From NCBI RefSeq assembly GCF_034008635.1, contig NZ_CP125378.1, forward strand, positions 338,501 to 402,500: 64,000 nucleotides of DNA, in the 5' to 3' direction. This DNA is from Pseudomonas sp. P8_229 (lineage in GTDB: Bacteria > Pseudomonadota > Gammaproteobacteria > Pseudomonadales > Pseudomonadaceae). This document shows positions 28,042 through 56,260 of the stretch, piece after piece. The position numbers and the translations under genes were made by a program. Positions within the stretch are counted from its first letter, which is position 1, and the number at the start of each line of letters is the position of its first letter. Below the pieces are notes generated by a model. The model did not search any database, was not told the DNA's origin, and saw only the letters and a program-made list of their open reading frames with translations.

Positions 28042-28240
28042 TGATCGGGTTTGGTAGCCCGCTTCTAAGTATGATGGCGACGCCATAGGCAGTTCCCTTT
28101 TTCAGGGACTCGTTTTTATATGGCGGCCATGCGTGGGGCTCCTTCGGGAGCGCCGGGTTTCCTGCTTAGACCGGTCTACCAACCCGCGTATGGCCGCCAC
28201 CCTCGTTTGGTAGCGAGAGTGATGGCTCCTTACTTATGCT
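28042..28240 (+). ncRNA. Highly structured leader RNA upstream of the DUF6124 gene
   Basis: Several stems can be drawn. One is a 13-bp stem, 28121-28133 with 28187-28199 (one G-U pair), enclosing GCTCC-TTCG-GGAGC and AGACCGGTCT arms. Two hairpins have the identical eight-base loop TTTGGTAG: CGGG/CCCG at 28046-28061 and CTCG/CGAG at 28202-28217. CTACCAA at 28176-28182 is complementary to both loops. ATGGCG-A-CGCCAT lies at 28074-28086. The leader ends close to the ATG at 28258. The remainder of the 27857-28257 gap (to about 28040) shows nothing else. I do not recognise a named RNA family. Confidence 0.65.
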
Positions 28241-53427: not shown

Positions 53428-54708
53428 TTACGCCGTCAGCGAATAAATCACCGCCGAAATAGCCACCAGACCTACTGCGGTGACAAACACGTTCGAGGCC
53501 TGACCGCGATAGCGCGCCATCGCTGGCACTTTACGAATCGCGTACATCGGCATCAGGAACAGGATCGCAGCGATCACTGGACCACCGACGGCCTCGATCA
53601 TCCCGAGAATGCTCGGGTTCAGGGTCGCAACGATCCAGCACACGACCAGCATGAACGCCGCCACGATACGGTCCAGCGCCTTGGCGCCCGGACGCTTGCC
53701 GGTCTTGACGATCAGGCCCTTGAGGCCTTCGCTGGCCCCGATATAGTGGCCGAGGAACGACTTGGAGATCGCCACGAATGCAATCAACGGCGCCGCAAAC
53801 GCGATGGCCGGGTTGCTGAAGTGGTTGGCCAGGTACGACAGGATCGACAGGTTCTGCGCCTTGGCTTCGGCCAGTTGTTCCGGCGACAGGGTCAGCACGC
53901 AGCTGAAGACGAAGAACAGCACCATCACCACCATCAACAGGTGGGCGCGGCAGAGGATCTGCGAACTGCGTTGTTCTGCGTTAGCACCGTAGCGACGCTT
54001 CTGATCCACCGCGAACGCCGAGATGATCGGCGAGTGGTTGAACGAGAACACCATCACCGGAATCGCCAGCCACATTGTGTGCAACAGCGCCGACGGCGCC
54101 GGTACTTGCGAAGCAGTAGTCAGGATGCCGCCGTTCCAGTGCGGAATCAGGTACACCGCCAGGAACAGTAGCGCGACGATGAACGGATACACCATCAGGC
54201 TCATCGCCTTGACGATCGCCTGTTCGCCACAACGCACCACCGCCAGCAGGCCGAGGATCAGCACGAACGACAGCAGCGCGCGCGGTGGCGGCGTGATGTG
54301 CAGTTGGTGCTCGAGGAAACTGGCGACCGTGTTGGTCAGGCCGACGCTGTAGATCAGCAGGATCGGGAAGATGGCGAAGAAGTACAGCAGAGTAATCAGT
54401 GCACCGGCCTTGATGCCGAAATGCTGCTCGACCACCTCGGTGATGTCGGCGCCTTCGCGACCGGAAAGCACGAAGCGGGTCAAACCGCGGTGAGCGAAGA
54501 ATGTCATCGGGAAGGCCAGCAGCGCGAGGATCACCAGCGGCCAGAAGCCCCCCAGACCCGCGTTGATCGGCAAAAACAGGGTACCGGCGCCAATGGCCGT
54601 CCCGAACAGTCCCAACATCCACGTGGTGTCATGGCGATTCCAGCTCGACAGTTCAGCTGGTGCTGCCGCTACATAGCGTTCGTCGACGCTATTGGCCTGA
54701 TCATTCAT
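53428..54708 (-). CDS. HAAAP-family serine/threonine-type permease
   Basis: 426 aa from the ATG at 54708 (NDQANSVDERYVAAAPAELS), ten bases after GGAG; upstream in-frame ATGs lack such a site. About 11 membrane helices. The family blocks WMLGLFGTAIGAGTLFLPIN and VFSFNHSPIISAFAVDQKRR are clear and resemble SdaC/TdcC proton symporters for serine or threonine. It ends in a strong terminator. The exact substrate is not provable by eye. Confidence 0.92.
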   Translation of the reverse strand: MNDQANSVDERYVAAAPAELSSWNRHDTTWMLGLFGTAIGAGTLFLPINAGLGGFWPLVILALLAFPMTFFAHRGLTRFVLSGREGADITEVVEQHFGIKAGALITLLYFFAIFPILLIYSVGLTNTVASFLEHQLHITPPPRALLSFVLILGLLAVVRCGEQAIVKAMSLMVYPFIVALLFLAVYLIPHWNGGILTTASQVPAPSALLHTMWLAIPVMVFSFNHSPIISAFAVDQKRRYGANAEQRSSQILCRAHLLMVVMVLFFVFSCVLTLSPEQLAEAKAQNLSILSYLANHFSNPAIAFAAPLIAFVAISKSFLGHYIGASEGLKGLIVKTGKRPGAKALDRIVAAFMLVVCWIVATLNPSILGMIEAVGGPVIAAILFLMPMYAIRKVPAMARYRGQASNVFVTAVGLVAISAVIYSLTA

Positions 54709-54962
54709 CCGGTCGGATCTCCGCATTCCGGTCACTTGCCACTCGGTCAGGACGCGTCGGAAAAAACCGACAGACATGCTCCGGCCGAAACAGGGGCGCG
54801 ATTCTCCGCGATAAATGAGCAGAAGCAAAGACTTAGCTGAGGAATGGTTGTACGGAGCAGATCAGCGGGTTGTCGCTTTCGGGAAAATGGTTGTCGGCAA
54901 CAGGTATGCGCCATGTCGCTTTCTGGCAAGCTTCAGTGCAATGTGCGATCGGGAAGACTTGG

Positions 54963-55670: not shown

Positions 55671-56054
55671 ATGCCCCTCGTCCGCGTCGAAATCAAAAAA
55701 CACGCCGATCCCACGTTCGCCAAACGCATTGGCGAGCAGATCTACGCCGCCATGCGTCACACCATTAACGTGCCGGAACACGACAACTTCCAGATTCTCA
55801 ACGAACATGATGCCGAGCATTTCATCTTCGACCCGCAGTACCTGGGCATCCAGCGCAGCGATCAGTTGGTGATCATCCAGATCACCCTCAACGAAGGCCG
55901 GACGCTGGAGCAGAAAAAGGCCCTGTACCAGACCATTGCGCAAAGCCTGAACACACAACTGGGCATTCGCCTGGAAGACGTGTTCATCAATCTGGTGGAA
56001 GTCAAAAAGGAGAATTGGTCGTTCGGCAACGGCATCGCTCAATACGCCAGTTGA
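55671..56054 (+). CDS. Tautomerase-family protein
   Basis: 127 aa. Pro directly after the initiator Met (MPLVRVEIKKHADPTFAKRI) is the catalytic base of the 4-oxalocrotonate tautomerase superfamily, and the second repeat contains TLNEGRTLEQKKALYQTIAQ. It is longer than classical 62-aa forms, as in the fused tautomerases. The stop codon overlaps the -35 element of the attenuator promoter described next. Confidence 0.9.
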   Translation: MPLVRVEIKKHADPTFAKRIGEQIYAAMRHTINVPEHDNFQILNEHDAEHFIFDPQYLGIQRSDQLVIIQITLNEGRTLEQKKALYQTIAQSLNTQLGIRLEDVFINLVEVKKENWSFGNGIAQYAS

Positions 56055-56080
56055 CAGCCCTTCGTCGCCGCCAGCATGAT
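56051..56080 (+). promoter_or_regulatory. Promoter of the attenuator leader
   Basis: A perfect -35 TTGACA at 56051-56056, an 18-base spacer, and CATGAT at 56075-56080 as a fair -10. The expected start of transcription falls on or next to the A of the leader ATG at 56087, so the leader mRNA would be nearly leaderless. Confidence 0.65.
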
Positions 56081-56086
56081 CGGCGC

Positions 56087-56164
56087 ATGAACATTCGCCC
56101 GCTGCACCACACCCGTACCACCACGACCGCCACTGGCGGGTCGTGGTGTGGCTGCCTGAGGTGA
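56087..56164 (+). CDS. Leader peptide, 25 aa, Thr/His-rich
   Basis: ATG through TGA encodes MNIRPLHH, then TRTTTTAT, then GGSWCGCLR. Six Thr codons fall between 56111 and 56134 and two His codons precede them. No Shine-Dalgarno sequence is seen, fitting a transcript that begins at the ATG. The Thr cluster lies across the left arm of the first hairpin of the attenuator, exactly where a stalled ribosome would change the RNA fold. Confidence 0.7.
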   Translation: MNIRPLHHTRTTTTATGGSWCGCLR

Positions 56165-56219
56165 ATCCAGCGCAGTGAACCCAAGGCCCCGCCAGCAATG
56201 GACGGGGCCTTGTTGTTTC
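56120..56219 (+). promoter_or_regulatory. Transcription attenuator: pause hairpin, antiterminator and terminator
   Basis: Hairpin 1 pairs 56120-56128 (ACCACGACC) with 56139-56147 (GGTCGTGGT). The terminator pairs 56183-56191 (AAGGCCCCG) with 56203-56211 (CGGGGCCTT), followed by GTTGTTTCT. The alternative antiterminator pairs CTGGCGGG (56133-56140) with CCCGCCAG (56188-56195). It excludes both hairpin 1 and the terminator. This is a complete textbook attenuation switch in front of the gene at 56261. Confidence 0.75.
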
Positions 56220-56260
56220 TCCCGTCCGTGCGGCACTTGCAGCCCTCAAGGAGAAACACC

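Follow-up and report, generated by a model that had tools for sequence, protein, structure and literature searches.

A threonine-rich leader peptide and conserved alternative RNA helices precede an isochorismatase-fold hydrolase gene in Pseudomonas and other proteobacteria: a probable attenuator outside amino-acid synthesis

Amino-acid attenuators are the textbook form of feedback on biosynthesis, and the locus studied here raises the question of what such a device does ahead of a lone hydrolase gene. The locus lies in a 64,000-nucleotide stretch of Pseudomonas sp. P8_229 (contig NZ_CP125378.1), called the window below. We read it, with a probability of about 0.8, as a ribosome-dependent leader-peptide attenuator of the hydrolase gene, which would sense a shortage of charged Thr-tRNA and drive a scavenging or detoxifying hydrolase. 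Comparison of related sequences brings out its predicted promoter geometry, its Thr run, its putative helices and its linkage to the hydrolase gene.

First, the window itself was read directly. The elements that the original prediction had named (promoter, ATG, ORF, hairpin, antiterminator and terminator) were all borne out, while the family-wide constancy of the promoter-to-ATG geometry, the coupling to the Shine-Dalgarno sequence and a sister family of Met leaders ahead of GNAT genes had been missed. The two promoter elements (Table 1) are separated by a spacer of 18 nt, and the tautomerase gene upstream of the leader ends at 56054. The leader ORF has 25 codons, including six Thr and two His codons. 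As in the attenuator class, a promoter stands close to a short ORF in which one regulatory codon is repeated. The stretch gave a better fold than all 200 dinucleotide shuffles (z -4.8). The attenuator is single in its own genome, where the covariance model found it with an E value of 6.9e-24 and the next match reached only 2.9e-4. The two His codons, proposed as a second signal, are not conserved, since relatives have LQLTR, LHLTR or LNLTR at this place, and His was therefore rejected as an additional stall signal. Elsewhere in the window, a gene for a permease of the Trp_Tyr_perm family lies at 53428-54828 (-); as a guess from its family, it may be a serine/threonine carrier. A C4 antisense RNA, which is a phage-type immunity RNA, was found at 28116-28204 (+; RF01695, 82.5 bits) and suggests prophage sequence in the window.

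Table 1. Features of the leader region and hydrolase gene in the window
Feature	Coordinates	Strand	Remarks
-35 element TTGACA	56051..56056	+	direct reading; shares bases with the tautomerase stop codon
-10 element CATGAT	56075..56080	+	direct reading; 6 nt ahead of the leader ATG
Leader ORF MNIRPLHHTRTTTTATGGSWCGCLR*	56087..56164	+	ATG at 56087-56089; probably leaderless
Segment 1 ACCACCACGACCGCC	56117..56131	+	four Thr codons and the next Ala codon; 5' arm of hairpin 1
Segment 2 GGCGGGTCGTGGTGT	56135..56149	+	3' arm of hairpin 1; its core GGCGGG serves as antiterminator strand
Segment 3 AAGGCCCCGCCA	56183..56194	+	terminator 5' arm; CCCGCC would pair with segment 2 on stalling
Segment 4 TGGACGGGGCCTT	56199..56211	+	terminator 3' arm; bulged A at 56202; T-rich tail to 56218
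Anti-Shine-Dalgarno TGTTTCTCC	56214..56222	+	overlaps segment 5; pairs with segment 6
Segment 5 TCCCGTCCG	56220..56228	+	complementary to TGGACGGGG (56199-56207) of segment 4
Segment 6 GGAGAAACA	56250..56258	+	contains the Shine-Dalgarno sequence of the hydrolase gene
Isochorismatase-fold cysteine hydrolase, 174 aa	56261..56785	+	PF00857, E 1.7e-36

The hydrolase scored 126.4 bits against the PF00857 profile, above the curated cut-off of 27. In an alignment of 21 sequences its D9, K83 and C116 fall in invariant D, K and C columns, and we take these residues to be the catalytic triad of the family. Its five matches to NCBIfam equivalogs (biuret amidohydrolase, PRK11440 hydrolase, nicotinamidase, RutB and YcaC) were all far below the cut-offs. 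A PADLOC scan of the hydrolase and the tautomerase was empty, and there was no thr gene among the five neighbouring proteins that were profile-scanned together with the hydrolase. The locus departs from the attenuator class in its target, which is a PF00857 hydrolase, where the class has a gene for making or loading the amino acid of the codon run.

Next, we examined how closely leader and hydrolase are linked. When 149 genomes of the genus were searched at the DNA level, 54 gave a match. At all 29 loci taken from among the matches listed (L003-L031, besides the window's own), the hydrolase gene adjoined and the leader ORF contained a Thr run; a tautomerase match was absent in 17 of these 29 (about 1.5 kb fetched on each side). 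In 40 Pseudomonas genomes, a hydrolase profile gave 14 orthologs at 267-295 bits vs 99 other family members at no more than 154 bits. The attenuator was directly upstream of 13 of the 14 orthologs, while none of the 99 paralogs adjoined any of the 19 attenuator matches, and no Thr-run ORF was found at the 16 paralogs that were read individually. The exceptional ortholog (in genome G015) has lost the leader, while the sequence reaching from the terminator loop as far as the Shine-Dalgarno sequence is preserved.

The best 80 of 334 hydrolase relatives in named genomes, from 15 genera, were also scanned. A strict criterion called for an ATG start, a tight run of five Thr and a position at most 300 bases upstream. 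By this criterion, a Thr-run leader was found at 77 of these 80 loci, with all 15 genera represented; the controls gave 1 in 800 dinucleotide-shuffled sequences and 1 in 2120 further windows taken from these loci. The failures were two Pseudomonas loci with a slightly shorter run (L292 and L301) and one listed with a GTG start only (L296). A looser criterion gave 79 of 80 loci, vs 25 of 800 shuffles and 46 of 2120 other windows, and a looser leader listing showed an upstream Thr-run ORF at all 80; the hydrolase gene start is misplaced in the leader listing for L263 and L279. Thr was kept in the 80 leaders while its codons varied (ACC 329, ACG 126, ACT 46 and ACA 38). Besides the hydrolase and two large clusters, which were taken for artefacts of shadow reading frames, no partner gene was common to more than four genera in the 80 loci. 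One Aeromonas record, whose hydrolase is 64% identical, had no such leader, and no match to the Enterobacter mori unit turned up when 20,395 E. coli records were searched at blastn sensitivity. In a 369-genome sample of the class, the covariance model gave the window's own genome and one further match (1.4e-8), a generic terminator; the Pseudomonas model therefore does not reach distant members.

These data support the prediction of a leader-peptide attenuator with Thr codons ahead of the hydrolase gene across genera. The suggestion that the leader had been captured from another operon was disfavoured and rejected, because leader and hydrolase occur together in the 15 genera and 17 of the 29 loci show no tautomerase match within the roughly 1.5 kb fetched on each side. 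Several loci carry additional features. Genome G220 carries no fewer than three hydrolase units and two GNAT units, and every unit has a leader to itself (L115, L131, L132, L134 and L141). On a Duffyella plasmid (L219, 796-1173), the Thr leader and hydrolase closely follow a RidA-family gene; the substrates of RidA are dehydration products of threonine and serine. The Aeromonas caviae record of L217 (NZ_AP026896.1) is a 4.9 Mb 'plasmid' with 18 annotated features and may be a mislabelled chromosome.

We then analyzed the RNA helices. The pairings 1:2, 2:3 and 3:4 are mutually exclusive and are accompanied by a terminator and a T-run in the window and its relatives, as in known attenuators. The 8-bp antiterminator pairing is exact in the window (CTGGCGGG at 56133-56140 with CCCGCCAG at 56188-56195), but only its GGCGGG/CCCGCC core is conserved. 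Two helices beyond those described before, 4:5 and 5:6, are both conserved. A partner-swap test was run on 39 leaders with mutual similarity below 80% (2000 permutations, kinship ignored), and pairing with the own partner beat every permutation for helices 1:2, 3:4, 4:5 and 5:6. Helix 2:3 was near-invariant and without covariation, with 1310 and 1280 of the 2000 permutations equally good in two runs. The wrong weak hairpin had been taken in 6 of the 39 leaders in the first run, and a stricter hairpin rule gave the same outcome. The stems and the reading frame are conserved among the relatives, contrary to the refuting condition named with the original prediction.

Pair counts were made over all 25 dissimilar sequences. 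The data showed 83.4% pairing for 3:4 (26-57% when slid), 73.9% for 4:5 with the terminator loop (33-53% when slid) and 65.1% for 5:6 (38-52% when slid). The covariation score was matched by 0, 3 and 0 of 500 shuffles, respectively, although for 5:6 a one-column slide scored nearly equal (0.167 vs 0.170). Preliminary counts on 13 of the 25 sequences, chosen by eye as alignable and omitting five enterobacterial, one Shewanella and six other sequences, gave stronger values for 3:4 and 4:5 and a weaker one for 5:6 (33 of 500 shuffles); we rely on the counts over all 25. Compensatory changes can be read in individual sequences: in Burkholderia, GCCGG..GGACGG complements CCGTCC..CCGGC; in Pandoraea, GCCAGTGA complements TCACTGGC; and L192 and L197 have CCTTACAT/ATGTAAGG and CCTTACGT/ACGTAAGG in place of CCTTGTGT/ACGCAAGG. 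Because two more conserved helices join the terminator to the Shine-Dalgarno sequence, transcription termination and hydrolase translation are probably both controlled. The enterobacterial members retain versions of TGGACGGGG, CTCCGTTCA and TGAATGGAG, and TTTT is missing from the nine bases that follow the last GGG of the hairpin in all 20 of them, which points to translation control in these members.

The distance from promoter to leader ATG was determined in a non-redundant set of 129 upstream regions, to which the GNAT leaders also belong. The promoter was better than 95% of mononucleotide shuffles in 114 of the 129, and in 93 of these 114 the -10 element ended 6-8 nt ahead of the leader ATG. 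Twelve regions with a 33-nt gap are GNAT leaders whose start was set too late (judged from 70 of the 129 regions), and the 6-8 nt geometry was absent in 6 of the 8 enterobacterial regions listed. Because the -10 element ends so close to the ATG, the leader of the window is probably translated leaderless, from the very 5' end of the RNA.

Two folding models of the switch were compared. At equilibrium, the full RNA of 39 leaders mostly favoured 3:4 and 5:6 whichever position the ribosome had, and the mean unpaired probability of the Shine-Dalgarno sequence was 0.29 with the ribosome stalled in the Thr run vs 0.24 at the stop codon. Equilibrium folding of the full RNA of these leaders thus did not show the switch or the release of the Shine-Dalgarno sequence. 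In a co-transcriptional model, the RNA ended ahead of segment 4 and the best Thr codon was taken as the stall, a choice that favours the stall state; its values for the GNAT leaders are uninterpretable, an internal ATG having been taken as their start. Here, the mean upstream pairing of segment 3 was 0.83 for the best Thr stall, 0.29 without a ribosome and 0.07 with a ribosome at the stop codon, and the stall value was the highest in 40 of 40 leaders. The corresponding values for the leader of the window were 0.91, 0.01 and 0.00. In 8 of the 40 leaders, segment 3 paired upstream above 0.7 even without a ribosome. Since 3:4 and 5:6 mostly prevail at equilibrium wherever the ribosome stands, switching must, on these models, be kinetic; classical attenuators likewise act kinetically.

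The proposed mechanism is as follows. The transcript would start at or next to the leader ATG, and the leader would be translated leaderless. With plentiful charged Thr-tRNA, the ribosome would reach the leader stop codon and cover segment 2, so that the 3:4 terminator forms; in RNA that is read through, 5:6 would hide the Shine-Dalgarno sequence of the hydrolase gene. A stall in the Thr run would cover segment 1, segment 2 would pair with 3, and transcription would continue. After the stall, segment 4 and the terminator loop would pair with 5 and free the Shine-Dalgarno sequence, and this exchange of 4:5 and 5:6 would set hydrolase translation. The stall signal would be a lack of charged Thr-tRNA, through starvation or inhibition of threonyl-tRNA synthetase (ThrRS), and the hydrolase would presumably relieve the shortage or destroy its cause.

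Related leaders were found ahead of other genes. A Met-rich leader with the same core precedes a GNAT acetyltransferase gene (for example, MTYTRQMNMMCSSMTASGGP at L101). Such loci include L033-L042, L098, L101, L102, L106, L107, L194 and, in B. cenocepacia, L308, where the GNAT relative has the Met-rich leader MNFNALQSMMCTMTAYGESWET; of the 106 records matched, six others were inspected, belonging to Photobacterium, Vibrio, Pantoea, Duffyella and Klebsiella, and showed no such leader. The covariance model gave 90 loci at E values up to 4e-10 (L098-L175 and L188-L199). L188 and L189 repeat L100 and L102, and the 88 distinct loci comprised 54 with a hydrolase, 28 with a GNAT and 6 with neither. 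In the own-partner test on eight GNAT leaders, 12, 3 and 0 of 2000 permutations were as good for 3:4, 4:5 and 5:6, while 1:2 (1206 of 2000) and 2:3 (877 of 2000) were no better than swapped partners; the start error affects 1:2.

A leader with nine Thr lies ahead of an MFS transporter gene in two copies in genome G079 (L052/L053, C104 and C62; also L303). The divergent gene beside this unit resembles a methyltransferase, as guessed from its start. The transporter had no close relative in 98 other genomes of the genus. A homology search with a 118-aa piece as query gave three hits, which carry little weight. Matches of the covariance model weaker than about 1e-7 had a hydrolase or GNAT gene at none of 29 loci checked (L176-L187 and L200-L216) and look generic, although L201 resembles the relic of a Thr leader. 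A hydrolase gene is missing behind the Thr-type attenuators of L045 (G015), L047 (G089), L166 (G285) and L201 (G518). By eye, L045, L047 and L166 still have the promoter, the Thr codons and the terminator, while their usual ATG is gone or no longer in frame. The hydrolase-less Thr attenuators are possibly stand-alone RNAs.

These leaders bear on how the Thr run is to be read. It might serve the hairpin only, the signal being any block of translation, as in ArmZ/PA5471 of P. aeruginosa, a general translation-stress switch. Codon and structure are indeed confounded, because the Thr codons make up the 5' arm of hairpin 1, and in the model any ribosome over segment 1 yields 2:3. However, Thr is retained despite varied Thr codons and differing surroundings, down to Enterobacterales, and the Met-rich run on the same core in the sister family suggests that the amino acid is chosen. 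We therefore consider a general-stress signal unlikely.

The short RNA or leader peptide might instead act in trans, like rnTrpL/peTrpL of S. meliloti, with control of the hydrolase being secondary. The S. meliloti trpL transcript is reported to start at the leader ATG (PMC7298713), much as the promoter-to-ATG geometry predicts here, and hydrolase-less Thr attenuators persist in several genomes (L045, L047 and L166, with L201 as a relic). Action in trans nevertheless appears very improbable, given that a Thr-run ORF stands upstream of all 80 hydrolase relatives scanned (the best 80 of 334, looser listing) and that the helices extend into the hydrolase Shine-Dalgarno sequence. A plain intrinsic terminator of the tautomerase gene with a chance ORF, to which the terminator and the nearby tautomerase end at 56054 would give room, was rejected as scarcely credible, since leader and hydrolase are conserved, a conserved promoter stands ahead of the leader, the 17 leader-keeping relatives noted above lack a tautomerase match within about 1.5 kb on each side, and the strict-criterion controls were almost empty.

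Typical means of removing a toxic compound include a hydrolase, an acetyltransferase and an exporter. A tentative extension of the attenuator reading, which we hold to be possible but doubtful, is a resistance switch: the Thr leader would read a ThrRS inhibitor or threonine antimetabolite and the hydrolase would destroy the inhibitor, the Met leader would do likewise with the GNAT enzyme, and the Thr leader would once have been recruited by the MFS exporter, so that a swap of the codon run retargets the RNA frame. Alternatively, the hydrolase may salvage a Thr-containing compound, or it may defend against a block in the aspartate-family pathway, which makes both Thr and Met. In the resistance reading, natural inhibitors such as obafluorin and borrelidin would be candidates; ThrRS is reported as the target of obafluorin, which is made by P. 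fluorescens, and of borrelidin (PMC10619133).

The locus was also compared with known systems. No Rfam family matched the attenuator at the gathering threshold, and a permissive search gave only sub-threshold matches, including RF00506 (Thr_leader) at 18.1 bits and E 0.48, vs a gathering score of 55. With thrL (RF00506) it shares a short Thr-rich leader ORF, competing hairpins, a terminator and an end-to-end alignment to the model, but here a lone hydrolase gene stands in place of thrABC, the leader is probably leaderless, and extra helices reach the Shine-Dalgarno sequence. The hydrolase shares the PF00857 fold and conserved catalytic positions with 2a67, CrcA/PA1677, biuret hydrolase and YecD (PDB chain 8cib is, as we guess, CrcA); unlike these relatives, it belongs to a separate ortholog group by the bit scores given above for 40 genomes, CrcA not being part of the sequence comparison. 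The words 'leader' and 'threonine' are absent from the available text of the CrcA paper (PMC10213629). S. meliloti trpL (rnTrpL), whose transcript likewise begins with the leader ATG, differs in its Trp codons and its trpE(G) target, and no Shine-Dalgarno coupling was found in the available text (PMC7298713). In erm/cat and ermK, stalling in a leader frees a ribosome-binding site or prevents termination ahead of a resistance gene (PMC5418344). Those leaders respond to ribosome-bound drugs, whereas the run of a single amino acid here points to tRNA charging, and termination and hiding of the Shine-Dalgarno sequence appear here in one RNA. The attenuator class is known; among the open-licence PMC papers listed in literature searches, judged by titles and the beginnings of abstracts, none described a threonine leader before an isochorismatase-family gene, or a Thr attenuator on a lone hydrolase that is conserved over such a range, with Shine-Dalgarno coupling and a Met-coded sister.

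Because leader and hydrolase are kept together in at least 15 genera, the sequences suggest that a shortage of charged Thr-tRNA, perhaps caused by an antibiotic, induces an enzyme that lies outside amino-acid synthesis. The same attenuator logic, kept across beta- and gamma-proteobacteria, would then drive an enzyme with no known part in making amino acids. Should a synthetase inhibitor be the trigger, the codon run of the leader would name the drug target, and such leaders would guide the way to natural antibiotics not yet known and to enzymes that overcome them. With its short length and its occurrence in tractable soil pseudomonads, the unit is open to direct testing.
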